Part shown: one piece after another, positions 7,401-21,414 of the stretch
Layout: each line of letters starts with the position of its first letter
How positions within the stretch are numbered: the stretch's first letter is position 1
IMG/VR virus record: IMGVR_UViG_3300006329_000051
Span: 1-21,623 of that record
Source: a virus
Strand: one strand, 5' to 3'
Length of the DNA stretch: 21,623 nucleotides
Translations under genes and position numbers: made by a program
Notes under the pieces: model-generated
What the model saw: only the letters and a program-made list of their open reading frames with translations
Database searches by the model: none
What the model was told of the DNA's origin: nothing

Positions 7401-10400
7401 CAGCGTCTGTTGGACATGAAAGATGGGAATATGGTACTAATAGCATTAGGACACCTGAGATAATAGTTCATGATGGAAATAGATTCTGGATGTACTTACA
7501 ATTTACTCAAGGATCAGGTAATAATGAGTGTGCAGTATTAACATCTGAAGATAGAGGAAGAACATGGAATGTTGAAGTTTCAACTGCTTTTAATGATCAA
7601 TGTGATTCTATAGCATTTAGTGATACAACTGGTATATTTTTAGGTTTTCAGAATAGTTTTATACTTACAGGAGTAGGTAGTGAATTTACAGATCCAAATG
7701 GTCTAACACAATTTAATACATCAACATCAGTATTCTCAGATAATACAATATCAAATACATATGATGCTAATAGAAGTAGAGCATGTGATAATGTAAGTAA
7801 CTCAATATTTACTTTATGGAATATTGTTCTTGATAGAATTAATGGAAGAACTCCTCCTACAACATCTTATGCAACATCATATTTCCTTGATAGTAATAAC
7901 AAATTCTTTACTGTAGGTCATGCATATGACGATCTACCTGTTATTGAAGTATCACCTTATATCTTTAACTCATCTGTAATTTCATTCCTTGGTGGTAATG
8001 GTTGTGAAATTGATGGTGCTAAGTGTGCTACTCCTAACGTAAAACGTCCTGGATTACCTCCTCAGGGTAAGTCGATGGTTGCTGCTGCATTCACGATTAT
8101 CTCATTTGGTGGTACTGGATATAATGTAACCAATGATGGTTATACTCAGTTGGTGTCTGTGTTCTGTATCTTTACACAAGACGGTGCTATTGTAGAAACT
8201 GGTGGTTATGCATCACTAACTAACTCAGCATCTAACTTTGGTACTTTCTCATTAAGAGCAAATGGTGTAAGAGAAGAAGCATATAGTTTTGATAAGGGTG
8301 TTATTAGTAACGTAACATTTACTGATATTGGTGTGCCTAAGTTTACTGTTACAGGTCTTGGAGCACCACCACTTGAGCATTATATTTTAAGTCCTGGTGG
8401 ATATGAAGTTGCTGTACAATCTGGTCAAAACCCATTGTATTTCATAGAGAATACAATTTCTGCAACTCCAACTAAACCAATTACTGCTGAAGTACAAGCA
8501 AACCTTGCAATGTCTGTTAGAGGTAACTTTAACCGCTATACAGATTCCTATGATTTAATTTACAATAATGCTAGGTATATTGCAGAAGAAGCATACTTTA
8601 AAACACTTCAAACTACATCTAATCCTTTAGACCAAGATAGAGTTAAGTGTATTCGTGACACAGAAGAAATAGTTAAAGCATGGGCAACAGACCTTAAGTT
8701 TGATGCTAACGATGCTACATGGGATGCTGCTAAGTTATATGTAAATGCAAACTCTATTCAGCATATTTCTGGATACGTTGCAGCAACCAAAGAAGTTCTA
8801 GATGAAGCAAGAGATCTATGTAAGAAAGCAGTAAATAACCAACTTAAATTAAAAGGAACTACATTAACTACTGCTGAATCAAATGCTAATTACTACGTTG
8901 CTACTTGGAGTGATGAAATTCCATATGTAGATACTACTATTACACATGATGTAAGTACTGGTACTGAGTATACCAATAGTGATTGTTCTAATGTTCAAAC
9001 TGCTTTGAACACATTAAATACTCTATTTGATGAGATAATTGACAATCCATCTGTTACAACTCCTATGCCTTCAACAGCAGTTAGGGATGATGGATTCTTT
9101 ACAATTAATCCAACAAATAAAAACAAACTACAGGATCATAGAATTGATATAAGAAGACCATCCATATGTAACTCCTCATCTCATACATGGGAATTCTCTG
9201 GATCTGGTAATGATTACAATGCACTACCTCAAAATGGTGGTACTAGAGGTTCAGATAACACTGGAGATTTTGAACAGGTATCTCAGAATAATGGACGTGT
9301 TTACGCTTCAGGTACTGACGAACTTGGTGACTTTAAGATTGGATACTTTGCTAAGGTAGAAAACAGAACTGGTAACATCACATTCGGTGGTACTGTTACA
9401 ATTTCTGAAGTTGAATTCTTGAAGATTAAGGGTAACAACGTTGTTATCACAGGATTTGATCCAAGTAATACTTTAAATGCTCTAGAACTAGGTGGTGCTG
9501 GTGCTAGTGATTCTCTACTACCAACTCAGAAGGCAGTTAAGGATTATATTTCTAACCAGTTAGGTCAATACTTAGGACGTACATATTCTACTGTTCCAAC
9601 ACCTAATGCTCTTGTTCAGTTAGATTCATCTGGTCGTATTAATATTGACCAACTACCTGCACTAAGACCATTCAACATTTATACGGTTGCAGATCAGGCA
9701 GCAAGATTGGCACAAGAAGGACCACTTGCTGGTGATATTACAATTCAACAGGATAATACTATATCCTACATTATGAACAATGACTTAGAAAGTCAAATTC
9801 TTGAATTTGATCCTGATTCACTTCATACCTTTGCAAACACTAATATTGTTCTTTGTAGTCCATCTGGATCACAGGGTCAGGTAACTTCATGGCTACCTGG
9901 TACTGTTAAACAAATTATTATTAATAATGGTGGTACTGGATATCAATCTGGTGATACAATCACAATCTCAGCACCTGGCGGTGGTGGTACACAAGCGACT
10001 GCTACTCTTACTGTTAATGGTGGACAGATTACTGGTGTAGCACTCGTTAATAAGGGACAAGGATATTACACAGCACCATCAACTGCTGGTAGCACAATTA
10101 CAATTACCACTTCAACAGGATCTAATGCTGTTCTTACTTCAGTTATTAGATCTAGATTAGAAGTTGATATTCTTAACTCAATTAAAGCAGTTGCTACTGA
10201 TAGTGTTGATGATAAAACAACTCCAACTGCAATTACTATTAGTTTAACTGATGTTATTAACACATCAGCAGGTAACAATGCTAACTGGGTTCAGTTAACA
10301 TCATCTACCATTGATGCATCATTTATTACAACTGGTGTTCTTAACGTTGCACGTCTTGGTAATATATCTTCTAACTATCCAGCAAACTCACTAACTTACT

Positions 10401-13400
10401 TAAGAGGTGATTCATTATTTGCTCCTGCAGTTGCATCACAAAGAATTTCAGATGATTCACCTATTGTATTAGGTTCAAATAATACTGCTAGTGATTATAT
10501 CAAGCAGATTCAGATTGTTAACGGTGGTGAAGGATATACTACAGGAACATATACTGACGTTCTTATGTTAGGTGGTGGTGGAACCTCTGCTGGACTTAAG
10601 GGTACATTTAACGTTGCTAATGGTGTAGTAAGTAGTGTAACTATAACTGCTGGTGGTACTGGATATACAACACCTCCTACAGTTGTATTCAAAGATAACT
10701 GGACTGATCCACAAAACCCAGCTGTTTTAAACAACATTAAAGCAGTAGCAGTTGTAAGTGGTGGAGCAATTACTGCTGTTCATATGACTGATGGTGGTAC
10801 AGGATTAGGATCAAACACTCCTTTAGTTGAGTTCACAGGTGGTGGAGGTGTTGATGCTACAGCAACCTCAGTTACTAAAGATGGTGCTGTTAGATTTATT
10901 ACTATTACTGATGGTGGTCAGAACTATACTGCTGACTTTACGGTAACTCCAATACCAACTATAATTGGTACTTCACCTACTATTGCTGCAAGTTTAAAAG
11001 GTATTATTGCATCTGTACCTAAGATCTATGGTGACTCTGTAATTGATATTAATAGAGTTGATGGTCTTACAGTTTCTGCAGAACCATATGGTAACTTAGG
11101 TGTTGTTAGATTACTGAAGAGTCAGTTCGAGTTTGCTGCTAATGGTGGTGCTACATTGAAGACAGGTCAAGGTTCTGGTCTTGATGCTGATACTCTTGAT
11201 ACTAATGATTCAAGTTACTTCACTAATGCATCTAATTTACAATCTGGTCTTGTAAATCCTCTTAGATTATCTGGAGATTATACCATTAATGTTACAGGTA
11301 ACGCTGCTACATCAACTCTACTTAATATTGGTGATACAAGAACTTCTATCTTTAATCCAGAAAACTTTGCTGCAGGTTTGCTTCTATCATGGAAGAGTAA
11401 TACTCAGGGATATAATACAGGTGAATTCCTTGCTGATGGTGGTAACTATCATAGTGTAATCACAACACGTCGCTCAGGGTCTTCTACGGACTTCTCAGGA
11501 GGTGCTTTAGGGCAGATAGCACAGACAGATAATAATAACATTTACATTAGAAATAGTGGTCCTAACCATGTTGGATCATTAACTGTATCTAACGCAGGTG
11601 CTGGTTATAAGAATGGAACATATAATAACGTATTACTAACTGGTGGTGAAGGTTATGGTCTAAAAGCAAATATAATTGTCTCTGGTGGGTCTATATCTTC
11701 TATCACTCTCGTAGATGGTGGTTGGGGATATAACGAAGATGGTACTGCTTCTGGCACATTTATTGCAGATCTACCTTATCAGTGGTTTGGTACACAAAAT
11801 ACAAGACAGATAACAACTCCTGCAGTTATTACAGCAACTCTTGCATTCCTTGGAAGTGGTTCTTCTACTGGTAATAGTTGGTCATCTTGGCGTAAGGTGT
11901 GGCATGATGGAAACCATGGAAAAGATTCTGGCTTAGATTCTGATCTATTACAAGGCAAAAATGCACGTTGGCATAAAAGTGCTCTTAACACTAATGAAGA
12001 GAAATTCGGTAATAATAGATTACCTTATCAACAAGCATCTCATGCATTTAATGAGCATGTTAAAGTAACTGTTCCTGATCCAAATTATCAAGATAATAAT
12101 GGTGGTCATTATGATCTTTATATTGAAGGTAAGAACTTAACTCAGCAAGTTGTAGATAATATTGATACTCAATCTGGAGTAACTGGTAAGCAGTGGAATC
12201 TATATACCGCTAACAATGTTAACGAAGGTACAATAAGAATTATTAGCAGAAAGATCAATCTTGATCCTGCTAATTATCTAACTGGTGTTCAGTACGTTGA
12301 GTACAACACAGAATGGGTAGCAAACGCATCAGCAAATAAGAATGATAGAATCGTATATGGTCATAACATATACAACGTAACAAACTCTATAACTGGTTCT
12401 TATAGTTTAGGAACAACTCCTCCTACACATATCTCTGGTACTGTAACAGCACCTGGAGGTAATGCTGATCTAACATTTGAAAGAAAGATTGAGAATCCTT
12501 GGACAATTCTTACTGTTGAATTAATATCTGGTAACTTATCAGAATCAATTAAGAAAATTGGTACTGCTACTGCACCTGCAGAATACTATGAGTTAACTGA
12601 TTGGGGTATTTCTGATAATACAACTTATTCTAGAACTAAGGCAATTCTTGGATCTGATTCTAGTGGTAATCCTTACTTAAACTTAGGATATACTGATGTT
12701 TCTACTACTGCATATATTGATGCTAATACATCAGGTAACAATGTAGATTATGATTCTAGAATTCAGTTTACTGGTGGATCTAGTAGCATAGGTACAGGTA
12801 CTATTAACTTTAGATCAAATAGTGCTCAGGTCAATGGTAACAATATATGGCATGAAGGTTCAATAACATTTGATAGTGCAAACACAGCAAATGCTGGTGT
12901 TAAACGTGATGCATCTGGTAACTTCTCTGCTGGTACTATTACAGCAGCATTGAATGGTACTGCTAACGGAAACTTACCGATTACTGGTGGAACTCTAACA
13001 GGTGCTTTGACTATCAGTACTACTGCAACTGATCAAATTAACTTCACACAAGGTAATAAGTACATAACTTGGAATGCAGGTATGTACTTTAGAGGTAGTG
13101 GTAGTTCTTGGAACGCAAGATTCTCTACTACAACTTCTACTACAACTTCAGAAATTATTAGTGCTTGGACAACTAACTTTGGTAATAGAGTATTTACCGT
13201 ATACAATAATAGAAGATCTAGATTTGATTTACCAGGAAATGATACAGATGGTATCCAAATATTTGGTAATTCTGGTGGATACTCTAGTATTAGACATTAC
13301 TATGGATCAACTACAGTTGGTTATAGATTAGCAATAGCTCATCTGGCAAACCATTATGGTACTGGAACTACTACAGGTGATATTATTGATAGAGTTGAAA

Positions 13401-13861
13401 GTGGACGTAAGTGGCACTTCAAGATGGGTGGACAAGTTAGTTCCATCGTTCTAGATGATTCCAGACGTGTTGCTATTAACCAAAGTAGTACAAACACTAG
13501 TTACCAGTTCTATGTAAATGGATCATTAGGTGCTACAAGTAAATCATTTGTTATTGATCACCCAACAAAAGAGAATCATGAACTACGTCATGGTTCACTT
13601 GAAGGTCCTGAACATGCAGTATATGTAAGAGGACGTGTAAGAAATAATGTTATTACCCTTCCAGAATACTGGACTGGACTAGTTGACATGAATACAATTA
13701 CAGTTCAATTAACTGCAGTTGGTGGAATGTCAAGAACTGTTTGGGTTAAGGATCTAAAAGATAATAAAATTATTACAGGTGGTGGTGACGCTTTCTACTT
13801 TGTACAGGCAGAAAGAAAAGATATAGATAAACTAGAGGTGGAGTACGACAAAGGAAACTAA
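1484..13861 (+). CDS. Giant mosaic virion/tail-fibre protein (4125 aa)
   Basis: A single uninterrupted 12.4-kb frame whose ATG is preceded by AGGA four bases upstream. Modules by approximate residue: 1-110 conserved N-terminus (LVRIGINTLNPQYELDVEGQ); 147-250 start of a pectin-lyase-like beta-helix (GRIYVSAQIGSDTFDGRSA, TIIVAGGDYLEDNPISLPD); about 515-625 and 845-955 helical modules; 630-843 five Asp-box repeats; 994-1927 nine Cys/MDG/YPR units; about 2165-2300 a second beta-helix segment (SFLGGNGCEIDGAKC, ISFGGTGYNVTNDGY); about 2350-2450 a third helical module; 2809-3433 GGxGY glycine-rich modules; 3430-4000 fibre repeats (HDGNHGKDSGLDSDLL, NLPITGGTLTGAL); 4020-4125 a conserved C-terminal cap (KSFVIDHPTKENHELRHGSL). 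Such proteins are typical of marine cyanomyoviruses, where they are assigned to the virion or tail fibres. Receptor or polysaccharide recognition is inferred. No catalytic residues can be assigned. The stop overlaps the next ATG. Confidence 0.9.
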   Translation: MALELNADKQIIQSDKLKIKNDTSVRIDLGGGADEKAAIFGNLTADADKLVRIGINTLNPQYELDVEGQIRTTTSIISDTARIANLDIDTIVNPSLALRAPVLNTFTDPNTNELLFPRSTTPAYSDDSNKIATTNFVYNIATNDVGGRIYVSAQIGSDTFDGRSATKPVRTIKRATQLAASTPDKETIIVAGGDYLEDNPISLPDLCSVVGDNIRLTICRPANPGKHMFKASDENYVTGITFRDQIDGNNVPIKTWSYAYVFDDKQRFYYPKSLGGQYGRTFNLGHKISAAQEWKLTFNSNGGGVLLVPGIVLTSVTGGTGTITEVVFDTGTDQSGYVVIQNITGLIESTGSVYTYDANDPVVNYNLSVSSGEQLTPDGQVVKHQTTHTSYSVSKVKYDPLLYPNGLIVTVTGTGVYHDFEVGQYVRFTNFPDAGLYADLDRFNGRQYVSHRIETTDGFSTQFVVYKDNPTDLGAIGAPGGEYGVTNFAVTVTSDDHYVTFSLDNSPRKFVTSTKSANRYLDATDLIDRNKAGIADQALKRAKKEYPALMCADEAKCINDIGYIIDAVNYDLTWGGNAATKEAAEYYYTGGVLDHLVGSLKESTYTFAQARDLSIQAMRNQLEYVSSSTKTSVTKTVGFGGNAIWDNERFVSVSQSGIATSADGVTWTSQTVAGSPYLRDVLFNKWAVGERGVPEYIAVGHGGVIFTSNNTVDWYSKTTPNTKDLKAVAYDGTTYVVVGEDGTVLTSQNGNTWVAQTSGTTNDLEDIIYNDDYDAFYAVGNNDTILKSTNSGVTWTALESGTISQNIQSISWFEGTMVAGVARAHILISDDGGDTWETNTITSTVTSDRNQDAADLLLKNKKLLAAQGLFNYLNNGGSGHTVPTGNMACIDDIVDVVEAIAHDLRHGGNYRTYKAASYYVSTNATAGEEAEAVGALDAAIVLAKSIIRNVSITVNYVNDATYVASLETPYQALTQYTKPDITLDYSEGTRHSATNATYDPDTGVVVLTIANHGFADGEYIKIDTDALKFTCSMDGNYSTHSYPRAEDPANDAWLQIFGKTNDTISVFVGRAFNTSYSPTGGSYDPETGIMTLTVGENRFKAPSSHTVTFADYNPNTGIMTVTIPHHGFYENDHVKFNNGAVTFTCTQGGGTHSYPRSTDPASNRWLNIWNVTRDTFDVQVLDTVPSTNTTVHTFSSALSGGLKHSSENVKLATGGISFSCNPGGGVQTVAYPRNTVDSLNTPTGATYDPATGVFQTTINGHGLKNGDWVKFGTGTFRFQCTMDGGSSPKDYPRASDPVNDQWLKVTNVTTNTFEVNVGKSPIVGHDASSGSYNASTGELELNIGPHTLAQGTAIKIAKESLQFKCGMDNNTSTKVYPRTTDPAYNTALDITAATENTITVNVGTTPLVNHDVTNATYDPATGLVVMTLVGTHGLVQGESIRVGDNKLTFTCTMDGNATDHTYPREGDPAYQTALPITNVSGQDITVNVGTSPIVNKTVTAAIYNPNSGDLVLTIGNHSLRQGTNIKLATESLVFTCTLDDNVSQKSYPRASGANTSSGADYAYDTPLPITAITSDTITINVNGGQGAISDLSTHTFVSGTNAVVSGGNYTHTWSGGTSTAAVISGGNYPHTFQTVAGLTPNDASYNFTTGKLSLTFASAHNLTTDDYVKLDENALSFTCAMDGNTAIKQYPRSSDPTFGKFIQLENVTTLGFDLDVGTSPLVSHDVTDAEYTPTTGILKLVIGKHDLKVGTNIKLDTDSISFKCGLDNFTATKTYPRANGTGGATADDPAYDSPVTIIDTDATSITINVGTSSDTSEHQFVTASAGAVKSGGGYAHTFTGAANNSVKRAQVLSGGGYAHTFVSSPGGGVSKKRDRAFDTNIPVVGTTSTNVQLFVGISTSVYAHTFVSAVDDALIAGGNYVHTFLSSDVNGIIKNGAESPTTACTDVINSIVTLNSIVTTAITNDNMNHAALTASVGHERWEYGTNSIRTPEIIVHDGNRFWMYLQFTQGSGNNECAVLTSEDRGRTWNVEVSTAFNDQCDSIAFSDTTGIFLGFQNSFILTGVGSEFTDPNGLTQFNTSTSVFSDNTISNTYDANRSRACDNVSNSIFTLWNIVLDRINGRTPPTTSYATSYFLDSNNKFFTVGHAYDDLPVIEVSPYIFNSSVISFLGGNGCEIDGAKCATPNVKRPGLPPQGKSMVAAAFTIISFGGTGYNVTNDGYTQLVSVFCIFTQDGAIVETGGYASLTNSASNFGTFSLRANGVREEAYSFDKGVISNVTFTDIGVPKFTVTGLGAPPLEHYILSPGGYEVAVQSGQNPLYFIENTISATPTKPITAEVQANLAMSVRGNFNRYTDSYDLIYNNARYIAEEAYFKTLQTTSNPLDQDRVKCIRDTEEIVKAWATDLKFDANDATWDAAKLYVNANSIQHISGYVAATKEVLDEARDLCKKAVNNQLKLKGTTLTTAESNANYYVATWSDEIPYVDTTITHDVSTGTEYTNSDCSNVQTALNTLNTLFDEIIDNPSVTTPMPSTAVRDDGFFTINPTNKNKLQDHRIDIRRPSICNSSSHTWEFSGSGNDYNALPQNGGTRGSDNTGDFEQVSQNNGRVYASGTDELGDFKIGYFAKVENRTGNITFGGTVTISEVEFLKIKGNNVVITGFDPSNTLNALELGGAGASDSLLPTQKAVKDYISNQLGQYLGRTYSTVPTPNALVQLDSSGRINIDQLPALRPFNIYTVADQAARLAQEGPLAGDITIQQDNTISYIMNNDLESQILEFDPDSLHTFANTNIVLCSPSGSQGQVTSWLPGTVKQIIINNGGTGYQSGDTITISAPGGGGTQATATLTVNGGQITGVALVNKGQGYYTAPSTAGSTITITTSTGSNAVLTSVIRSRLEVDILNSIKAVATDSVDDKTTPTAITISLTDVINTSAGNNANWVQLTSSTIDASFITTGVLNVARLGNISSNYPANSLTYLRGDSLFAPAVASQRISDDSPIVLGSNNTASDYIKQIQIVNGGEGYTTGTYTDVLMLGGGGTSAGLKGTFNVANGVVSSVTITAGGTGYTTPPTVVFKDNWTDPQNPAVLNNIKAVAVVSGGAITAVHMTDGGTGLGSNTPLVEFTGGGGVDATATSVTKDGAVRFITITDGGQNYTADFTVTPIPTIIGTSPTIAASLKGIIASVPKIYGDSVIDINRVDGLTVSAEPYGNLGVVRLLKSQFEFAANGGATLKTGQGSGLDADTLDTNDSSYFTNASNLQSGLVNPLRLSGDYTINVTGNAATSTLLNIGDTRTSIFNPENFAAGLLLSWKSNTQGYNTGEFLADGGNYHSVITTRRSGSSTDFSGGALGQIAQTDNNNIYIRNSGPNHVGSLTVSNAGAGYKNGTYNNVLLTGGEGYGLKANIIVSGGSISSITLVDGGWGYNEDGTASGTFIADLPYQWFGTQNTRQITTPAVITATLAFLGSGSSTGNSWSSWRKVWHDGNHGKDSGLDSDLLQGKNARWHKSALNTNEEKFGNNRLPYQQASHAFNEHVKVTVPDPNYQDNNGGHYDLYIEGKNLTQQVVDNIDTQSGVTGKQWNLYTANNVNEGTIRIISRKINLDPANYLTGVQYVEYNTEWVANASANKNDRIVYGHNIYNVTNSITGSYSLGTTPPTHISGTVTAPGGNADLTFERKIENPWTILTVELISGNLSESIKKIGTATAPAEYYELTDWGISDNTTYSRTKAILGSDSSGNPYLNLGYTDVSTTAYIDANTSGNNVDYDSRIQFTGGSSSIGTGTINFRSNSAQVNGNNIWHEGSITFDSANTANAGVKRDASGNFSAGTITAALNGTANGNLPITGGTLTGALTISTTATDQINFTQGNKYITWNAGMYFRGSGSSWNARFSTTTSTTTSEIISAWTTNFGNRVFTVYNNRRSRFDLPGNDTDGIQIFGNSGGYSSIRHYYGSTTVGYRLAIAHLANHYGTGTTTGDIIDRVESGRKWHFKMGGQVSSIVLDDSRRVAINQSSTNTSYQFYVNGSLGATSKSFVIDHPTKENHELRHGSLEGPEHAVYVRGRVRNNVITLPEYWTGLVDMNTITVQLTAVGGMSRTVWVKDLKDNKIITGGGDAFYFVQAERKDIDKLEVEYDKGN
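1922..2233 (+). other. Pectin-lyase-like beta-helix segment in the giant protein (first part)
   Basis: Residues about 147-250 read as the opening of a right-handed parallel beta-helix: an IYVSAQIGSDTFDGRSATKP strand-turn with a GSDxxDGxSAxxPxxTI signature, then a TIIVAGGDYLEDNPI rung and a VVGDNIRLTICRP rung. The pattern matches the DUF1565/pectate-lyase-like start found in many phage fibre proteins. The remaining rungs of the usual module seem to resume only near residue 2165, after a very large insertion. Confidence 0.6.
3372..4010 (+). other. Five-unit Asp-box (BNR/Ycf48-like) beta-propeller in the giant protein
   Basis: Five copies of the Asp-box turn S/T-x-D/N-x-G-x-T-W occur at residues about 660 (TSADGVTW), 707 (TSNNTVDW), 746 (TSQNGNTW), 788 (STNSGVTW) and 829 (SDDGGDTW), spaced 39-47 residues apart. 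Each is preceded by a strand such as YIAVGHGGVIF, YVVVGEDGTVL or FYAVGNNDTIL. This is the repeat pattern of sialidase/sortilin/Ycf48-type propellers. The second copy has V in place of G. A further isolated Asp-box (TSEDRGRTW) occurs near residue 2020 (7541-7567). Asp-boxes are structural turns and do not show enzymatic activity by themselves. Confidence 0.75.
4463..7262 (+). repeat. Tandem protein repeats: nine FxCxMDG...YPR units plus GGxYxHT repeats
   Basis: Nine copies of F-x-C-x-[ML]-D-x-N...YPR-x-x-DP, with variants, have their Cys at residues about 1031, 1145, 1220, 1280, 1365, 1451, 1536, 1679 and 1764. Five of the eight spacings are near a unit length: 85, 86, 85 and 85, with one of 75. 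Each full unit begins with a TYDPATG hairpin and an HGLxxGxxIKI strand and ends in an NxITVNVGTSP strand. Between and after the later units are short repeats GG[NG]Yx-HT[FW]: five copies, for example SGGNYTHTW and SGGGYAHTF. The copies have diverged at the DNA level, so the array is old, apart from a near-recent 24-base duplication inside it. Confidence 0.8.
6974..7066 (+). repeat. 24-base direct repeat pair inside the giant gene
   Basis: The same 24 bases, coding for GGGYAHTF, occur at 6974-6997 and 7043-7066. The start-to-start distance is 69 bases, a multiple of three, so gain or loss of one copy by slippage or recombination would keep the reading frame. Confidence 0.8.
9908..11780 (+). 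repeat. Glycine-rich GGxGY modules in the giant protein
   Basis: Three clusters (about 9908-10085, 10502-10960 and 11569-11780) carry repeated strand-turn units of the form I-x-I-x-x-G-G-x-G-Y. Examples are INNGGTGYQSG, VNGGEGYTTG, TAGGTGYTTPP, SNAGAGYKNG and VDGGWGYNED, often followed by GGGG. The regular Gly-Gly-x-Gly-Tyr turns every 40-60 residues suggest a beta-solenoid or beta-prism fibre shaft. Fibre repeats with GSGLDADTLD-type sequence separate the last two clusters. Confidence 0.65.
13541..13858 (+). other. Conserved C-terminal cap domain of the giant fibre protein
   Basis: The last 106 residues begin with KSFVIDHPTKENHELRHGSL and continue through EGPEHAVYVRG, LPEYWTGLVD and a terminal KLEVEYDKGN. 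I recognise this as a C-terminal domain recurring in cyanophage fibre-like proteins, and it probably caps or trimerises the fibre. No Ser-Lys dyad of the S74 self-cleaving chaperone is evident, so no autoproteolysis is claimed. Confidence 0.6.
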
Positions 13862-14631
13862 TGGCATTACACACAGGGCAAAATTGTATATCTGATGGTC
13901 TTTGTTTTTACATAGATGCAGGTAACCCAAAATCTTATCCAGGTAGTGGATCTATATGGTATGATCTTGCTAATAAGATTATAATGAATTCATCTGGAAC
14001 TCAAACACCTTTTACTACAAAGGATAATGTTCCATGTTTTCAATTTAATAACAGTGGATACTGGTCATCATCTGATGATGACGGTAAGAAATTCTGGACA
14101 GGTAATGGAGCAACTCTTGAGTTGATAATTTGGAGATCTGGTGATTCAATGACTGAAAGAGACACTATTTTTGAAAAGAATCCATACCAAGGTGGGCAAA
14201 GTTACACTAATGAGTTTGCTTGTACTTACGAAACAAGTGAAACCTTAAGTCACTACAGAGGTGGTGCTACAGGTGGGTCATATGATTATTCAAATACACA
14301 AACAGCTTGGCAGGATAATGCATGGACTCAATGGACATCAACATTACCTGGTCCTAGTCCAAGTAATGGACAAAATAGATTTAATGGTAAGAATGTAGGA
14401 TCTTATGTAACAAGAGCCAGTGGTGGAACTAATAGTTACAGGCAAGCAGGTGCAGTACGAGTAGGTACTGGATATGCTGGTACTGTGGAAGGTACTTCTG
14501 CTAAAGGTCCTTATATTACTATTGCTAGAATTTATGAAAGAGTTCTATCTGTAGATGAAATTAAACACAATTGGGAAGTGTTTAAGAGACGTTACGGTCT
14601 TGCGGAAGGTGAAGGTAATTATGGTTATTAA
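13861..14631 (+). CDS. LamG/concanavalin-like jelly-roll protein (256 aa), probable fibre or adhesin
   Basis: The ATG at 13861 overlaps the stop of the giant gene (TAATG), implying coupled translation. Residues 10-40 (ISDGLCFYIDAGNPKSYPGS, WYDLANK) and 230-250 (ITIARIYERVLSVDEIKHNW followed by FKRRYGL) are the characteristic first and last strands of LamG-like jelly-roll domains in phage and bacterial surface proteins. Between them lie the expected beta strands (ATLELIIWR, TIFEKNP). The whole protein is essentially one such domain with no signal peptide or membrane span. Such folds commonly bind carbohydrate, so a distal or accessory adhesin working with the two neighbouring fibres is likely, though ligand binding is inferred. 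The long Trp/Ser/Gly-rich middle (residues 140-200) is less typical. Confidence 0.8.
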   Translation: MALHTGQNCISDGLCFYIDAGNPKSYPGSGSIWYDLANKIIMNSSGTQTPFTTKDNVPCFQFNNSGYWSSSDDDGKKFWTGNGATLELIIWRSGDSMTERDTIFEKNPYQGGQSYTNEFACTYETSETLSHYRGGATGGSYDYSNTQTAWQDNAWTQWTSTLPGPSPSNGQNRFNGKNVGSYVTRASGGTNSYRQAGAVRVGTGYAGTVEGTSAKGPYITIARIYERVLSVDEIKHNWEVFKRRYGLAEGEGNYGY

Positions 14632-14632
14632 T

Positions 14633-14640
14633 TATAAATA
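14633..14640 (+). promoter_or_regulatory. T4-like late promoter TATAAATA
   Basis: An exact TATAAATA match to the T4 late-promoter element begins one base after the stop of the LamG gene and ends 15 bases before the ATG at 14656. It sits in a 24-base intergenic gap. Exact match plus position make a function likely. The resulting leader would be very short, and no strong Shine-Dalgarno is seen (only an AAGAAAAG stretch). Confidence 0.7.
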
Positions 14641-14655
14641 TAAGAAAAGCTAAAA

Positions 14656-16731
14656 ATGGCAAACTCTGATAAGGACATTTTAATAACTCCCCAGAAAGGT
14701 GCTGGTACAGGTACGTATCCAGAAATTAGCTTTGTAGGTTCTGGTAATAATCCTATAAGATTAAGGGTATTAGATAATAATGCTGTAGAATTTAAAGGTT
14801 CATCTGGTCAGTTATTTAGTGTAAATAATACAACAACAGGAACTATATTTTCAGTTAACGATGTTTCTGGTGTTCCGAGTATTAATGTTGATGCAGGTGG
14901 ACGAGTAGATTTAGCAAGATATAACGGTCAAGTTCAAATTGGTCAAAACGCAAATACAACTGATAAAGATTTGTGTGTGACAGGGGCGATAGCAGTAACA
15001 AATAAGAAACTTCAAACAACACCAGCTGCTATACATTTTTATGAAGATGCATCTAACACAGGTACAGGTAGTATGTATTTGGGTTATGATGGTCCTAATA
15101 AAGGAGATAATGAAAATTATTGGTTTGTTAGGAATAGTAGTAATACAGATATTTTAACATCAACTTATGGTGGTGCAGTTGGTATTCGTACTACTAACCC
15201 AAGAACTGTTCTTCATCTTAGTGGTGGACACACTACTACACAGTTTAGGATGACGTTGCCATCTGGTAGTAATGGTGGTGGAACTGGTGAAATTAACTTT
15301 CAGGCATGGGTTTCTGAAGGTGGTGTTACATGGGATGGTTGTGGTATTGGTGCTAACGTTAGTAACTATAATACCTATTCATATCCAACTTCAGCAAACT
15401 CTTCCGATAATAATTATTTCCCAAGATTAAATACATCTGTTGGTTCGTCATATATTAGATTCTTAACTAATCCTGGTTACTTATCTTTCTCTACAAGAGA
15501 AAATGATGGTACTAGTTATAGGGATCAAATCCAAATGAGATATGGTATGTTAGCTATTAATGCTGGCACTACTACTTCATATAAGATCAACGTTGGTGGT
15601 GATGTAAACATCACAGGAAAATATAGGATTAATGGTAATGAGTTTACCATGTTACCATCACAGACAGATTCTACTAGAGGTGCATATCTAGTATCTGATG
15701 GTTCTAATGGTGCTTTCTGGGCATATCCAGGTGCTTCTAATAATACCTCTTCACCATTAACTGGATATAGATATAGAAGTTTAATTACTCATGGATATAT
15801 TGCAGGTGGATATAAAGGATCTCAGCCATGGAGATCAGTAAATAAAACGTGGCATCATACTGACACTACTGTGTATTGTGGTGAACAGTTAGATAGAGCA
15901 GGTGCTTATTGTGATGGTACATGGGGTGACTATCAGGCATATGTTCATGGTACTGTGAACTCATTCCAAGGTAACTCCAGTCATACCTCAAGTTATAACG
16001 GTCATACTGGTATTGTTAGAAACCAAGGTGATGGTAGATTCTCTCAGCACAACTATGGTTGGGATGATAATGAACCCAAAGATACTATGGGATATGGTAC
16101 TACTGGTGGTTGGTCAATGAACGTAGGTAGAAACGACGCTGGATGTGCTAGTAACCAAATAGGACAGGCAGGATATATAACAGGAGGTGGTAGTTCTGAT
16201 ACTAACAAACTACATTTCCCAACTGAGATCATGTACACAACTAGTGGATCTGGTTATTCAAATGACTGGGTTGCTGGTGTTGGTGGTGAAACAAGAGGAT
16301 ATTTCTCTTGGAGTAATGGTGGTCAACAATACATAACTTATAGTAATGATAGTTGGTCTAATACCAATGCTATGGGTGGTAATAGGGGATGGTGTAAAGC
16401 ACTTCCTACTAAGCATGGTTTCTTCTACATATGCACAAGTAATAACGTGACTACTCCTATCCGTAAGGTAAGAGATAGTGATGGTGCAGATCTTGGAAAC
16501 TTCAATAGATCTAGATCAGCTGGTGAAGAGAATATGGAAATGGGTCAAGATTGGGGTTATAAACTAGGTGACTATAATGGTCAGCAGAATAACCAAACTG
16601 AGAAATGGAATTATTCAAATGATTCTATTACTGCTATGGGTGCAGCAACTAGACCTAAAGGACATTATGGACAATCATCTGCAGCATGTTCATCATTTGC
16701 AGCAGCAGTAACAGTAAATCAGCCAGCATAA
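14656..16731 (+). CDS. Tail-fibre-like protein with kelch-like C-terminal half (691 aa)
   Basis: Residues 1-100 carry the conserved phage fibre N-terminus (DKDILITPQKGAGTG, GQLFSVNNTTTGTIFSVNDV, INVDAGGRVDLARYNGQVQI) found in many marine phage fibres. Residues 100-370 are Gly/Ser/Asn-rich beta structure with a KINVGGDVNITGKYRI element. From about residue 381 the sequence becomes Trp/Tyr/Gly-rich with recurring blade-like segments: HGYIAGGYKGSQPWRSVN, AGAYCDGTWGDYQAYVHG, AGYITGGGSSDTNKLHFP, RGYFSWSNGG. The GYIxGG turns resemble kelch or related propeller repeats. A trimeric fibre with a propeller-like receptor-binding tip is the best reading. The gene follows its own late-promoter-like motif, and the next gene starts one base after its stop. 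Confidence 0.75.
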   Translation: MANSDKDILITPQKGAGTGTYPEISFVGSGNNPIRLRVLDNNAVEFKGSSGQLFSVNNTTTGTIFSVNDVSGVPSINVDAGGRVDLARYNGQVQIGQNANTTDKDLCVTGAIAVTNKKLQTTPAAIHFYEDASNTGTGSMYLGYDGPNKGDNENYWFVRNSSNTDILTSTYGGAVGIRTTNPRTVLHLSGGHTTTQFRMTLPSGSNGGGTGEINFQAWVSEGGVTWDGCGIGANVSNYNTYSYPTSANSSDNNYFPRLNTSVGSSYIRFLTNPGYLSFSTRENDGTSYRDQIQMRYGMLAINAGTTTSYKINVGGDVNITGKYRINGNEFTMLPSQTDSTRGAYLVSDGSNGAFWAYPGASNNTSSPLTGYRYRSLITHGYIAGGYKGSQPWRSVNKTWHHTDTTVYCGEQLDRAGAYCDGTWGDYQAYVHGTVNSFQGNSSHTSSYNGHTGIVRNQGDGRFSQHNYGWDDNEPKDTMGYGTTGGWSMNVGRNDAGCASNQIGQAGYITGGGSSDTNKLHFPTEIMYTTSGSGYSNDWVAGVGGETRGYFSWSNGGQQYITYSNDSWSNTNAMGGNRGWCKALPTKHGFFYICTSNNVTTPIRKVRDSDGADLGNFNRSRSAGEENMEMGQDWGYKLGDYNGQQNNQTEKWNYSNDSITAMGAATRPKGHYGQSSAACSSFAAAVTVNQPA

Positions 16732-16732
16732 A

Positions 16733-17557
16733 ATGAAGTATTTAATTATTAAACAATCAGCTTTAGATACCACACAATTTGATAGCGGTTTGTGGGATAG
16801 TAGATTTACATTTAATGAAATGTATGATCTACAGAATCTTTCTTGTGTAGAAATATCTGATGAATTGTATGGTATACATCATAAAGCTTGGGAAGGTAAG
16901 TATAAAGAAATTACAAAGGATGTAGCAACAAATGGATCAACTTTCTTCTCAGAAGTAAGAGATGTATCTAAGGTTTGGGAAGTAGGTGAAGGTGCTCCTG
17001 AGGGTCTGACTGAAGAGCAGATGAGGAATATGGACTATCCAGATGGTGTGAAATATGGTAAAGTCCCAGTCACAATGACTGATGAAATTAAAGCAGATAC
17101 TTTAAACTTCATGAAAATCTTTGCTAAAGAATTGATTGAAGATGAATTTGAAAAGAGATACTTAGCAATTAGAGATACTGGTTTATTAGAATCTGCAACA
17201 TGGGAAATACAAAAGCATGAAGCAAGAGAACATTTGGCAGGTGCAGGTGGTAAGACAGCATTTCTAGATTATCTTTCAACACAACATAGTACAGATAAAA
17301 CAGTATTAGCAAATAAGATCTTATCTAAGGCAGAATCATATGAAGATAAGGTATCTACATTATTAGTTGCTATGCAAAAACTACTGAAACAGTTTGAAAA
17401 TACTACTTCTATAAAGGATATAAATACGTTATATGAGGACTATCTTGGTGTCTTGATGCCTACAATACAGGCGATAGAGATGGGTAGGACTGTATCCAAC
17501 ACAGATTGGGCACGTAAACCTGAGTATGAGGTAAAAGCGAATGAGTACAACTTCTGA
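16733..17557 (+). CDS. Hypothetical phage protein with helical C-terminus, possible fibre-assembly factor (274 aa)
   Basis: The ATG lies one base after the preceding stop. Residues 1-110 are mixed alpha/beta (MKYLIIKQSALDTTQFDSGL, ITKDVATNGSTFFSEVRD). Residues 120-265 are strongly helical and charged (ELIEDEFEKRYLAIRDTGLL, ATWEIQKHEAREHLAG, KILSKAESYEDKVSTLLVAM). A helical tail with a WExQxxEA segment directly behind a fibre gene recalls phage tail-fibre assembly chaperones, but the resemblance is weak and I would not name the family. It contains an internal TATAAATA at 17419-17426 and overlaps the next gene by 17 bases. It is likely a structural accessory or assembly protein, and the function is not established. 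Confidence 0.7.
   Translation: MKYLIIKQSALDTTQFDSGLWDSRFTFNEMYDLQNLSCVEISDELYGIHHKAWEGKYKEITKDVATNGSTFFSEVRDVSKVWEVGEGAPEGLTEEQMRNMDYPDGVKYGKVPVTMTDEIKADTLNFMKIFAKELIEDEFEKRYLAIRDTGLLESATWEIQKHEAREHLAGAGGKTAFLDYLSTQHSTDKTVLANKILSKAESYEDKVSTLLVAMQKLLKQFENTTSIKDINTLYEDYLGVLMPTIQAIEMGRTVSNTDWARKPEYEVKANEYNF
17419..17426 (+). promoter_or_regulatory. Possible internal late promoter (TATAAATA) inside the 274-aa gene
   Basis: An exact TATAAATA occurs in the coding sequence 115 bases upstream of the ATG at 17541. It could give extra late transcription of the downstream genes. An all-A/T octamer is expected a few times by chance in sequence this AT-rich, so the call is tentative. Confidence 0.3.
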
Positions 17558-18326
17558 ATTTTTAAATAGTAATGATGATATTGACATCGTTAATGCAGAA
17601 GTAAAAGACATTAAACTTAGTAAAGAATATATTGATGAGTTTGGTGTATCGGAATTAGATTGGAAAGTGCTTGAAGGAGCACTCCATATGAATTCGACTA
17701 TGACTCCATATCAGTGTCAACATTTTGTTGCTGATAGTCAACTGACACCATGGAGAAAAACAAGACAAGCAATGTTAGAATTAGAGACAAGGTATCATGC
17801 CTATGTCGAAATTAAGCATAGCTTGAAGAAATCTATTGTTCAACGTAAGTTGATGCAGAGAGATTTTGAAGAGACAGAAGATGAAATTAAAAAAGAATTA
17901 ATTGAAATTGATCTAAGTAAACTTGATTATGATATTACTATTTGGAAAAGAAAATATCAACAGGCACAATCAGAAATTGATACCTTCTTAAAAATTGCTA
18001 AGAAAGTAATTAAGACAGAAGATGATATTAAAAATATTACTGAATATAATGAGGATGAAGAAAGAAATTACTGGATTGCTCGTATGGGTAAGCAAGCTGC
18101 CATGGATATTGTTTCTTTTGGTAGAATAACCTCAGGTAATATGGATTCATTAACTTTAATGCCAGAACAAGATCAGGTTGAGGCATTACAGATTGCCACT
18201 AGATACTCATCCATGGTTATGGGTGGTGTTGATAAGATAAATAAACAGTTACAACCTGAACTACAAAAGTTTATGGTTGGTGATAAACTAACTACTAAAC
18301 TAATAGAAGACGGAGGAAAATCATGA
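17541..18326 (+). CDS. Hypothetical coiled-coil phage protein (261 aa)
   Basis: The protein starts inside the end of the preceding gene (17-base overlap) with no good Shine-Dalgarno, so translational coupling is likely. Residues 1-40 are acidic. Residues 75-165 form a long charged helix or coiled coil (KKSIVQRKLMQRDFEETEDE, DYDITIWKRKYQQAQSEID). Residues 175-235 are a more compact, conserved-looking part (YWIARMGKQAAMDIVSFGRI, MPEQDQVEALQIATRYSSMV). The last 25 residues are polar. There is no signal peptide, membrane span or recognised catalytic motif. I recall similar unnamed proteins in cyanomyoviruses but cannot assign a function. Position between fibre genes and the enzyme cassette leaves both a structural and a regulatory role open. 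Confidence 0.7.
   Translation: MSTTSEFLNSNDDIDIVNAEVKDIKLSKEYIDEFGVSELDWKVLEGALHMNSTMTPYQCQHFVADSQLTPWRKTRQAMLELETRYHAYVEIKHSLKKSIVQRKLMQRDFEETEDEIKKELIEIDLSKLDYDITIWKRKYQQAQSEIDTFLKIAKKVIKTEDDIKNITEYNEDEERNYWIARMGKQAAMDIVSFGRITSGNMDSLTLMPEQDQVEALQIATRYSSMVMGGVDKINKQLQPELQKFMVGDKLTTKLIEDGGKS
18312..18316 (+). promoter_or_regulatory. Strong Shine-Dalgarno GGAGG for the 70-aa gene
   Basis: GGAGG lies six bases before the ATG at 18323. It is the clearest ribosome binding site in the second half of the window, where most starts depend on overlap with the previous gene. It supports the small downstream gene as real. Confidence 0.7.
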
Positions 18327-18535
18327 CTGATTGGGCAGCTATAAAGGATGTTAGATGTAAAGCAATGCTTCCTATCATTCAATATCAGTTGGATGCTGAG
18401 AATCCAACAGCAGTAAACGAATCTAAGTTATTAGAATTTGCAGAAGCAAATAAAGATATCATAGAAGGTGGTAACGAACAACTTTTTATTAATGCAGTAG
18501 TGAAAGATTATGAAGATTTTCTCGCTTCCAATTAA
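18323..18535 (+). CDS. Small hypothetical phage protein (70 aa)
   Basis: The ATG overlaps the preceding stop (ATGA) and has a strong GGAGG site, so this short frame is very likely translated. The product is acidic and helical (WAAIKDVRCKAMLPIIQYQL, ESKLLEFAEANKDIIEGGNE), with one Cys and no membrane segment. I do not recognise the family. Its 3' end overlaps the start of the next gene by 26 bases, so it is embedded in the same operon as the enzyme cassette. Confidence 0.65.
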   Translation: MTDWAAIKDVRCKAMLPIIQYQLDAENPTAVNESKLLEFAEANKDIIEGGNEQLFINAVVKDYEDFLASN

Positions 18536-20189
18536 CCCTAAACTTGAAGAGGAATATGTTTATTCTGACTTCATACCTTTTTTAAAAGAACATAAACATT
18601 TAATATCTGATCTATATTTTACCTGTCGTATGCCTCCTTTTCTACAGGATGCTATGGGTGATGTATTTGAGTCGGATATTAGAATGACTACTATGAATGC
18701 TTTGCATATTAGTAGGGAAGTAGATATACCATTGTCTGCTACATTTAATAATATTTACGTAGTACCAAATCAAAGAAATTTAGATACTTGGATAGAACAT
18801 TTTAGACCTTTATATAATGAAGGTTGTAGAATAGTAACTTTACCTCATACATCTTGGGTATTAACTGGACAGATACAAAGAGAGTTTCCAGATCTTTACA
18901 TTAAGAATACTATTCTAAGAGAAGTAACAAAAGCAAACGATATAGTCCAATTATCTCAAGCAGGATTTAACTATGTTAATCTTGATAGAGATCTTATGCG
19001 AGATAGAGATCAACTATTAAGAATTAAACAAGCAAAAGAATATTGTGATAATGATCTTAAGATTTCATTATTAGTTAATGAGGGATGTTGGGGTGGATGC
19101 CCCATAATGCCAGAGCATTATCATTATAATAATTCTAGGATGCCTAATGATCCACAATATTTTGATGACCCTATAAGTAGAGTTTCATGTTCCCTTTGGG
19201 ATGTAAAGGATCCAGCAGCATCATTAAAGGCAGCTAATTTACCACCATGGAAAAAAGATTGGGAAGAGATTCTTGATCTAGGTGTTGATGTCTTTAAATT
19301 ACATGGCAGAGAAAATGCTATGAGATTAAAAGAATCCATGGATATAATTAAACGATGGAATAATGATGAAGAACTTTTATTTCCAGAGTTTGAAGAGTAT
19401 ATGGAAGATACATCAATGGCAGAGAGACCTATTGATGTTTGGAGAGAGAAAATAAAAACATGTAAGTTTGATTGTTGGGATTGTCATTACTGTGATACTA
19501 TAGCTAAGAATTACGTAGATAAGAAAGGATTATCTTTACATCCTTATGTTGAACGTGTACTAAGATCTATAGATGATGCTGCAATGTTTAAAAGTGGTTT
19601 TGAACATCGTTATACTATACCAGGATTTACATCTAATAGGGTTCGTCATTTTTTAAATAACTTATGTTCTCAATCTCCAACAGTATATCTAGAATTGGGT
19701 TGTTATACTGGTAGTACCTTCTATGCAGCTACACATAAAAATGGTATAATAGCAGCATATGCTGTTGATAATTTTGAATCAACAGAAATAGAACCTTTCC
19801 GAGAGGAAGTTCTATTACCAAAATCAAAAGATCCTAAAAAGGAGTTCTTATCTAATTTCTATCATCCTAATTGGTCGTTAATACATAAGAACATACCAGA
19901 TTTAATTGGTTCCGATATTCCACTTAAACCTAATGTTATTTTCTATGATGCAGATCATGATCATGTTAATCAATTAGCAAATTTAAATTCAATTCTTGGT
20001 TTTCTTCCAGATGAATTTATACTTGTTTTAGATGATGCTAATTTCCAAGGAGTAGTATCTTCTGCTGATGAATTTGTAGAAACAAATAATTTGAAACCAA
20101 TGTTTCGTAGGAAAATATTAACATCTGTGGTAGAAGATGATAAGGATTGGTGGAACGGTCTCTATATACTTGTACTTTCTAAATCATGA
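18510..20189 (+). CDS. Fusion of U32-peptidase-like Cys-rich domain and class I SAM methyltransferase (559 aa)
   Basis: Residues 1-345 resemble the U32/UbiU-UbiV-like TIM-barrel group. They contain a NEGCWGGCP motif (C193, C197), a VSC (C227), an FKLHGR strand (262-267) and a CKFDCWDCHYC cluster (C318, C322, C325, C328), which suggest Fe-S or metal binding. Family members include RNA and quinone hydroxylation factors as well as proteins named peptidases, so proteolysis is not assumed. Residues about 365-559 form a Rossmann methyltransferase of the Methyltransf_24 type: motif I LELGCYTGS (394-402), acidic VDNF (419-422), FYDADHDH (478-485) and LDDANF (507-512). The gene starts inside the 70-aa gene without an obvious ribosome site and overlaps the next gene by ATGA. 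Hydroxylation followed by methylation of a common substrate is a hypothesis, and the substrate is unknown. Confidence 0.75.
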   Translation: MKIFSLPINPKLEEEYVYSDFIPFLKEHKHLISDLYFTCRMPPFLQDAMGDVFESDIRMTTMNALHISREVDIPLSATFNNIYVVPNQRNLDTWIEHFRPLYNEGCRIVTLPHTSWVLTGQIQREFPDLYIKNTILREVTKANDIVQLSQAGFNYVNLDRDLMRDRDQLLRIKQAKEYCDNDLKISLLVNEGCWGGCPIMPEHYHYNNSRMPNDPQYFDDPISRVSCSLWDVKDPAASLKAANLPPWKKDWEEILDLGVDVFKLHGRENAMRLKESMDIIKRWNNDEELLFPEFEEYMEDTSMAERPIDVWREKIKTCKFDCWDCHYCDTIAKNYVDKKGLSLHPYVERVLRSIDDAAMFKSGFEHRYTIPGFTSNRVRHFLNNLCSQSPTVYLELGCYTGSTFYAATHKNGIIAAYAVDNFESTEIEPFREEVLLPKSKDPKKEFLSNFYHPNWSLIHKNIPDLIGSDIPLKPNVIFYDADHDHVNQLANLNSILGFLPDEFILVLDDANFQGVVSSADEFVETNNLKPMFRRKILTSVVEDDKDWWNGLYILVLSKS

Positions 20190-20776
20190 CACCATCATTT
20201 ATTGAAGAATATCAATTAGAAGATACCACTATATGTGATTCCTTAATAAAGATGTATAAAGATGCATCTGCTAAAGGTCTTGCTTATAGAGGTAAATCTG
20301 GTATTGGTAGAGTTCAAGAAGAAGTTAAAAAAAGCATGGATTTCTGGCTACAGGATGCAGATAAACTTGCATCACCAGCACAGATGAATGAGTTGTATAG
20401 ATGGTTTGACTATAGAGAACAACTAAATGATTTCATTGATGTATACCTAGATAAGTTTAAATTCAATGAATTTGGTGGAACTTTTACGTCAAGACAGTTC
20501 CCACAGATACAACATTATCAACCAGGAGAGGGTTATTATGAATGGCATATAGATGGAGCACAATTAACTGGATGTGAACGTGCTATGGTTTATATGACAT
20601 ATCTAAATGATGTCACAGATGGTGGTGGAACTATGTTCTATCATCAGGACTATACAGTTAAACCCATTAAGGGTAAGACAGTTATCTTCCCTGCAGCATA
20701 TACTCACGTACATAAAGGTGAGATATCTGAAACTCAACACAAATACATTATCACAGGATGGTTATGGTGGACTTGA
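20186..20776 (+). CDS. 2-oxoglutarate/Fe(II)-dependent dioxygenase (196 aa)
   Basis: This is a prolyl-4-hydroxylase-type double-stranded beta-helix enzyme. The iron triad reads as H121-x-D123 in EWHIDGAQ and a distal His in YTHVHKGE, with H174 or H176 the candidate. K186 (KYIITGWL) is the likely 2-oxoglutarate-binding basic residue, in place of the more common Arg; Lys is used there in prolyl 4-hydroxylases. The core strand run YLNDVTDGGGTMFYHQD is typical of the family, and the length is normal. The ATG lies in an ATGA overlap with the fusion gene. Such enzymes are common in marine T4-like phages, mostly with unknown substrates. Hydroxylation of protein, nucleic acid or a small molecule is possible. 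Confidence 0.9.
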   Translation: MTPSFIEEYQLEDTTICDSLIKMYKDASAKGLAYRGKSGIGRVQEEVKKSMDFWLQDADKLASPAQMNELYRWFDYREQLNDFIDVYLDKFKFNEFGGTFTSRQFPQIQHYQPGEGYYEWHIDGAQLTGCERAMVYMTYLNDVTDGGGTMFYHQDYTVKPIKGKTVIFPAAYTHVHKGEISETQHKYIITGWLWWT

Positions 20777-21414
20777 TAAACCCCAATGATTTTAGAATAA
20801 GAACTGGTATTTACCCTAAAGTAATTAATATAGGCAATACTAATAGTAGAATTGTTGTTATTAATGATTTCTTTTTATACCCAGATAAGGTTAGAGAGTA
20901 TGCTCTCAACTGTAAGTATTTTAAAGATCCTGAGATACCAATGAATCCAGGATATATTAACTACTTTGGGTTCAATGAAATACAGGTTCTGAAGTTAACA
21001 GGAATGTTAAAGGAATCCTTTATGGGAGATTTTAGAACTTCTCATACTTCTTTTGCTCCAGTAGTATCATTACAAATGTATAAAGAAATAGGAACTCTAA
21101 TGCCTCATGTTGATTATTTTCATTATGCTGGTATATGTCCACTTAATATTGATTATAGTCATGGTGAGAAAAGTTCTGGTACTCACTTCTACAGGTATAA
21201 GAAAACTGGAGAAGAGTATACAGCATTAGCAAACTATAGACACAAAGAGATTCTTGATTCAGAACTAGATGATTGGGAGGTATACCACACCCAGTATCAT
21301 AAGTATAATCAATATATATTTTATGAATCAGCATTATTCCATTCAGCACATTGGGATAAAAGCACTTGGAACTCAGATGAAGCAAGATTGACATTCAATA
21401 CCTTCACCTGGTAA
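20758..21414 (+). CDS. DUF6445-like putative 2OG-Fe(II) dioxygenase-fold protein (218 aa)
   Basis: Residues 30-55 (RIVVINDFFLYPDKVREYAL) and residues about 110-165 (PHVDYFHYAG, CPLNI, GTHFYRYKKTG) match the layout of DUF6445, a family related to 2OG-Fe(II) oxygenases. Candidate iron ligands are H117-x-D119 and a distal His in FHSAHW (H195 or H198), with R210 (EARLTF) as a possible cosubstrate residue. The frame overlaps the previous gene by 19 bases if the ATG at 20758 is used. The ATG at 20764 (MVDLINPN) is an equally good start and has AGG upstream. The GG before T in the usual GGT-F strand is replaced by KSSGTHF. Its place at the end of the cassette suggests it acts with the neighbouring dioxygenase. 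Activity is inferred. Confidence 0.75.
   Translation: MVMVDLINPNDFRIRTGIYPKVINIGNTNSRIVVINDFFLYPDKVREYALNCKYFKDPEIPMNPGYINYFGFNEIQVLKLTGMLKESFMGDFRTSHTSFAPVVSLQMYKEIGTLMPHVDYFHYAGICPLNIDYSHGEKSSGTHFYRYKKTGEEYTALANYRHKEILDSELDDWEVYHTQYHKYNQYIFYESALFHSAHWDKSTWNSDEARLTFNTFTW

Follow-up and report, generated by a model that had tools for sequence, protein, structure and literature searches.

A widespread family of cyanomyovirus proteins joins a divergent U32-like barrel with seven invariant cysteines to a likely O-methyltransferase

A protein that is widespread in cyanomyoviruses and has been catalogued as hypothetical can here be recognised as the fusion of a divergent U32 domain, featuring seven invariant cysteines, with an O-methyltransferase domain. 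It is encoded in the window, by which we mean the whole analysed stretch of 21,623 nucleotides; these 21.6 kb come from a virus record, and the encoded proteins have cyanophage proteins as their relatives. The complete gene lies at 18510..20189 on the plus strand, starts with an ATG at 18510 and encodes 559 amino acids plus the stop, with no internal stop in the 18510-20189 (+) frame; it overlaps a small ORF before it and the start of a 2OG-Fe(II) oxygenase gene after it. Given its matches to phrog_1458, phage records and IMG/VR stretches (see below), its coding nature is beyond doubt. The first-pass annotation had described a single frame carrying two domains, and this is what the 559-aa ORF contains, together with all of the motifs quoted for it: NEGCWGGCP (residues 190-198), CKFDCWDCHYC (318-328), LELGCYTGS, FYDADHDH and LVLDDANF. 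Databases already contain the family as such, and the folds of both domains are known ones. The whole protein matches phrog_1458 (E=5e-226), and the copies of P-HM2, Syn19 and S-ShM2 bear the label T4-GC 354 from a 2010 comparison of cyanomyoviruses; under both names, the family is catalogued as hypothetical or of unassigned function. There is no mention of T4-GC 354 in the text of Sullivan et al. 2010 (PMC3037559). We found no published description of a U32 plus O-methyltransferase architecture among the open-access papers searched, in agreement with the earlier remark that the architecture is uncharacterised.

The fusion is a constant feature of the family. Relatives occur in 123 phage records (77 Synechococcus phages, 38 records named ‘Cyanophage’ and 8 Prochlorococcus phages), with at least 80% of the query matched in each at 51-56% identity (tblastn); among the matches listed, the copies are annotated as hypothetical. 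A further 414 IMG/VR stretches contain relatives. When IMG/VR was scanned with the C-terminal cysteine motif of the N-terminal domain, 109 ORFs carried the motif, of which 105 feature both domains, while a contig end truncates the remaining four; no closed ORF with the N-terminal domain alone was found among these 109. Both domains are still present in those complete members that have diverged the furthest, to about 43% identity. The two-domain order that the first-pass annotation wished to see in other phages is thus found throughout, and its wording, a fusion ‘in a phage’, was right about the phage origin of the protein but understated its distribution, which takes in hundreds of viral contigs and 123 cyanophage records from isolates or assemblies. 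Although the window is a single metagenomic contig, the identical full-length architecture in the phage records and in 105 of the 109 motif-bearing ORFs rules out an assembly or sequencing error that joined two genes, a reading that we consider practically out of the question. In P-SSM3 (L152:6974-8691), the frame is broken within the methyltransferase part and has no annotated CDS, while other records have intact copies. Outside of viruses, no relative was found on plasmids, and the genomes of 84,980 prokaryote species yielded two loci only when scanned, on metagenome-bin contigs of 10 kb and 3 kb that look like misbinned phage contigs, the 10 kb one being equal in length to an IMG/VR contig (L079); a cellular homologue was not found among these genomes. 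The bins that hold the two contigs (L082 and L083) are named Dehalococcoidia and Euryarchaeota.

The N-terminal domain (residues 1-345; 18510..19544, plus strand) appears to be a U32-like TIM barrel with a Cys-rich C-terminal extension. Searches of Pfam, NCBIfam and PDB sequences gave nothing usable for these residues, and PF01136 was not matched directly at E<=1 in 28 members or at E<=10 in the window copy. The evidence for U32 comes from structure prediction and from profiles. Residues 1-345 modelled alone with AlphaFold2 reach a mean pLDDT of 82 and a pTM of 0.83, with low confidence at about 195-240 and 295-345; most of the cysteines lie in these regions, so their geometry cannot be judged from the model. 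Compared with the PDB by VIA-align, the model has Mk0906, a U32 protein of Methanopyrus kandleri (5D88), at rank 1, with a Z of 16.4 and an rmsd of 3.1 over 223 of 247 residues; the same match in the full-length model has a Z of 15.3. Mk0906 is the best solved-structure match of residues 1-273, but it shares 8% identity with them and its solved chain has no fused methyltransferase. The first-pass annotation had named a non-U32 fold as one outcome that would overturn its reading; such a fold was looked for, and U32 came first. The strongest competitor is a non-U32 TIM-barrel enzyme akin to methylenetetrahydrofolate reductase (MTHFR), whose chains outrank 5D88 by Foldseek E-value. In VIA-align, however, MTHFR is the next fold (Z 13.1, rmsd 4.8), 3.3 Z units below 5D88, and the profile match described below, to phage U32s related to PF01136, spans both the KxxGR motif and cysteines, which makes an MTHFR-like barrel highly improbable. 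Radical SAM was rejected as well: the CX3CX2C pattern formed by C318, C322 and C325 falls after the barrel and not at its first strand, and no radical-SAM Pfam family was matched at E<=1 in 28 members, with one weak NCBIfam match (0.023) in a single member.

The closest relatives of the N-terminal domain outside its own family are found in other phages. In a viral structure library, the best such match is a U32 ‘peptidase’ of an Escherichia phage of the Tevenvirinae (E 3e-9). Its family, phrog_5757, was also reached by sequence, through a weak tblastn match (E of 3-7), and is itself a member of PF01136 (7e-11). A profile alignment of the cyanophage N-terminal domain with 11 U32 proteins of phrog_5757 (hhalign) gives a score of 58.2 (prob 94, E 2e-7), whereas the maximum over 100 column shuffles is 25.4, so that none of the 100 reaches the real score, and the reversed profile scores 16.6. 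The alignment pairs NEGC with NEFC, FKLHGR with FKVSGR, the counterpart of the U32 KIEGR motif, and CKFDCWDCHYC with the cluster FDC..C..C.YC. Against UbiU, UbiV, TrhP and RlhA alone, the four E. coli U32 proteins, the same profile is at noise level in hhalign (2 of 100 shuffles reach the score). Adding the phage U32 family to the E. coli proteins yields 48.0 over residues 63-271 with the register unchanged, but the rise stems mostly from the phage sequences. We therefore regard a relationship to U32, at the far edge of the family, as well supported. The earlier description as U32-like is borne out by the 5D88 fold match and the phage-U32 profile score, with the qualification that there is neither a direct PF01136 match nor the canonical cysteine spacing; the named kinship with UbiU/UbiV, RlhA and TrhP has to be narrowed to that of a distant branch, as opposed to membership among these enzymes, in view of the noise-level scores of the four E. 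coli profiles and the same missing spacing.

What sets this branch apart is its cysteines. In 48 relatives that are 54-69% identical to the window protein, C193, C197, C227, C318, C322, C325 and C328 are invariant, along with K263, G266 and R267. The motif CX6CX15CX3/4C is canonical for most U32 families, but UbiU and UbiV, too, deviate from this pattern (PMC6747719). It is absent here, and the spacing is instead C193-X3-C197-X29-C227 and C318-X3-C322-X2-C325-X2-C328. Since this canonical spacing and a direct PF01136 match are both missing, we place the domain on a divergent branch of U32, marked by its seven invariant cysteines. The first two are part of CWGGC (residues 193-197; 19086..19100, plus strand), with C193 falling on UbiU C169 in the profile alignment, and C227 (19188..19190, plus strand) pairs with an invariant cysteine of the Tevenvirinae U32 family. 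Beyond the final strands of the barrel follows the loop of the KIEGR type, DVFKLHGR (residues 260-267; 19287..19310, plus strand), in which K263, H265, G266 and R267 are invariant; it occurs in the family as FK(L/M)HGR and aligns with both FKVSGR and KIEGR. The remaining four cysteines form CKFDCWDCHYC (19461..19493, plus strand), which resembles the cluster of the Tevenvirinae U32s and is found in the same place. By eye, the C-terminal stretch LKFDCRPCEM of E. coli RlhA (L158:6782-8743) also resembles CKFDCWDC. UbiU and UbiV bind a [4Fe-4S] cluster via conserved cysteines and act in an O2-independent hydroxylation (PMC6747719), and TrhP and RlhA likewise act in hydroxylation (PMC6599085). UbiU-UbiV is a heterodimer that works on quinones, and, as members of the E. 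coli set, the two share its failure to score above shuffles against the fusion. In TrhP, E162, C170 and C177 are essential (PMC6599085); C193 of the fusion lies on the first of these cysteines, while the spacing to the second differs and the position of E162 holds no Glu, with the invariant E191 nearby.

The C-terminal domain (residues 359-559; 19584..20186, plus strand) features a class I SAM O-methyltransferase fold, with Z values of 14-16 to fifty chains of the O-methyltransferase type, which supports the SAM methyltransferase domain proposed earlier. The best VIA-align matches, MeT1 (Z 16.4), TomG (16.1), MycF (16.0), TrmR (15.8) and COMT (14.4), are effectively tied. On the sequence level, Methyltransf_24 is matched by 23 of 28 members (best 4.9e-11), with the window copy at 24.9 bits, just under the curated cut-off of 26.3. 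TylF is matched by 1 of 26 members (7e-4); for Methyltransf_3, no match was reported among the members, and the fold match to TrmR is tied with other O-methyltransferases. A PDB sequence search with the whole profile or the C-domain profile gave no significant match. The SAM loop pattern E/D-x-G-x-x-x-G is present, and LGCYTGST (19692..19715, plus strand), with G397, G401 and T403 invariant, is presumably the SAM-binding glycine-rich loop (motif I). In the 48 relatives, G397, G401, D420, D480, D508, D509 and N511 are invariant in this part of the protein. Candidate metal ligands are D480 in FYD (19941..19949, plus strand) as well as D508, D509 and N511 in DDAN (residues 508-511; 20031..20042, plus strand). 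We take the three aspartates to be likely metal ligands by a comparison with enzymes of the TylF/MycF and COMT type that is based on motifs and not on superposition; these enzymes share the fold (Z 14-16) and the Asp pattern, but the sequence match to them is weak, with TylF recognised in one member only. The domain thus combines a class I O-methyltransferase fold with a likely metal site at D480, D508 and D509; the fold by itself does not choose among tRNA, sugar, catechol and other substrates.

Genomic context adds information of a different kind. Upstream of the fusion gene lies a tail-module gene (phrog_1409; 17541..18326, plus strand), a recurrent neighbour; downstream follow the 2OG-Fe(II) oxygenase gene (PF13640; 20186..20776, plus strand), whose start codon overlaps the stop of the fusion, and a gene for a DUF6445 / phrog_1644 protein (20758..21414, plus strand). 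We compared 50 IMG/VR loci, no two of them identical, that extend 2.5 kb or more to each side of the fusion gene: a tail-module gene (a relative of window 13861-18326 or of T4-GC 351-353) is located upstream of it in 48, and a 2OG-Fe(II) oxygenase or DUF6445 relative lies upstream or downstream in 44. In P-HM2, the fusion gene sits between a giant tail-fibre gene and gp13. A 4125-aa ORF at 1484-13861 of the window probably encodes a giant tail fibre as well; imperfect ~255-base repeats occur in it at roughly 4450-7250. The phrog_1644 label reads minor coat protein, yet the protein is found beside 2OG-Fe(II) oxygenases, which may cast doubt on its being a coat protein. Neither the window nor the annotated cyanophages examined showed a glycosyltransferase or nucleotide-sugar gene next to the fusion, and tRNA genes are absent from the complete P-HM2 genome (ARAGORN) and from the window. 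As a weak hint, T4-GC 354 may not be found in virions, because it lacks the note ‘similar to Synechococcus phage S-SM1 protein’ that is attached to many known virion genes of P-HM2 and other phages.

How might the two domains work together? The fusion could be a bifunctional enzyme that carries out sequential oxidation and O-methylation on one substrate, for which we would put the chances somewhat short of even. The seven invariant cysteines of the U32-like barrel would probably hold one or two Fe-S clusters; the barrel would install or expose an oxidised site on the substrate, most likely a hydroxyl, and the C-terminal SAM O-methyltransferase, probably metal-dependent, would then cap that oxygen with a methyl group. 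This two-step reading is favoured by the first rank of the U32 fold, the profile match to phage U32s, the O-methyltransferase fold, the invariant D480, D508 and D509 and the fact that the fusion was never seen split among the 109 ORFs. Against it, the equivalent of TrhP E162 is not conserved, CX6CX15CX3/4C is not matched and the catalytic role of this branch is not readable from its sequence. The logic of hydroxyl first and methyl next is supported by Bacillus subtilis, in which trhP1, trhP2 and trmR, the last a catechol-type O-methyltransferase, belong to one operon and form ho5U and then mo5U in tRNA (PMC6599085); this does not fix the substrate of the fusion. A phage U32 domain, on the other hand, need not be a hydroxylase, since in Mosigvirus-type phages, whose U32 gene lies in an arabinosyl-cytosine cluster, it is a thymidylate-synthase homologue to which the cytosine hydroxyl is attributed (PMC13390438). 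The fused domains may also act on separate substrates.

What, then, could the substrate be? Our guess is a tail-fibre component or a virion-bound sugar or glycan rather than tRNA. A target of this kind would be likely because both steps sit in one late-module protein, and it is favoured over tRNA by the tail-module genes and the iron-oxygenase genes at 48 and 44 of the 50 loci, respectively. In its full form, the proposal is that a tail fibre or a glycan is first oxidised by a divergent Fe-S branch of U32, which carries four additional clustered cysteines, and then capped by the methyltransferase. This would be a new post-assembly modification of marine phage virions; we regard it as tentative and rather doubtful.

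A comparably speculative alternative, possible but on balance improbable, is that the substrate of the U32 barrel is a sugar or sugar nucleotide, which the methyltransferase then O-methylates, feeding the glycosylation of tail fibres or another product. The argument rests on the Tevenvirinae U32 proteins as the nearest relatives, which share with the fusion the U32 barrel, KxxGR, three mid-chain cysteines and the C-terminal FDC..C..C.YC, but have no methyltransferase domain and are ~24% identical over the aligned part. Their gene, in the arabinosyl-cytosine cluster, has genes for an arabinose-5-phosphate isomerase and a nucleotidyl transferase on one flank and one for a dCMP hydroxymethylase homologue on the opposite flank; the protein there may act on the sugar. 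The one member that matches TylF, a family of sugar O-methyltransferases, and the presence of the sugar methyltransferases MycF and SpnH among the best folds point in the same direction. However, the function of the Tevenvirinae protein is itself putative, and the missing glycosyltransferase and nucleotide-sugar genes beside the fusion speak against this route. The phrog_5757 U32 is kept in 218 phage records, mostly of T4-like enterobacterial phages and inside the arabinosyl-cytosine cluster, where it is annotated as a peptidase or a putative UDP-arabinose enzyme (examples are L163:4494-5654 of Escherichia phage PNJ-6 and L164:4494-5654).

A further, unlikely route has the fusion uniting TrhP and TrmR in one chain, with the wobble position of tRNA, be it from the host or the phage, becoming 5-methoxyuridine. 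The B. subtilis trmR-trhP1-trhP2 operon performs exactly these two reactions (PMC6599085), pairing U32 proteins (TrhP/YrrN/YrrO) with an O-methyltransferase, and TrmR is among the top structure matches of the C-terminal domain. But in B. subtilis these are separate proteins, the TrhP cysteine spacing and E162 are not conserved in the fusion, and TrmR is not singled out, as methyltransferases for sugars, catechols and small molecules score level with it. The fusion methyltransferase belongs to a different sequence family, Methyltransf_24 or TylF. P-HM2 has the fusion gene but no tRNA gene, which would leave host tRNA as the sole possible target there, and the late tail-module position is odd for a tRNA enzyme.

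Finally, the U32-like domain could be non-catalytic, a substrate-binding or an Fe-S or zinc structural module that serves the methyltransferase. Consistent with this, the domain keeps neither the cysteine spacing that is canonical for U32 nor the position of TrhP E162, and the C-terminal cysteine cluster could be a zinc site. The N-terminal domain, however, is conserved more strongly than the methyltransferase (mean column identity of 72% versus 50%), and the many invariant polar residues in the barrel point to catalysis there, which makes a purely accessory role decidedly unlikely.

Returning to a bifunctional oxidising and methylating enzyme, the wider interest of the fusion is that U32 is a large family with few solved functions, and a permanent fusion to an O-methyltransferase suggests what the next chemical step is. 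Together with the U32 proteins in the arabinosyl-cytosine cluster of T4-like phages, the fusion makes up two unexplained phage U32 branches with a common additional cysteine cluster. The question of the substrate is testable in the isolated and culturable cyanophages P-HM2, Syn19 and S-ShM2. If the target is tRNA, the fusion would represent a viral wobble-base system on one chain; if it is a tail fibre or a glycan, viruses that are among the most abundant in the sea would turn out to modify their virions.
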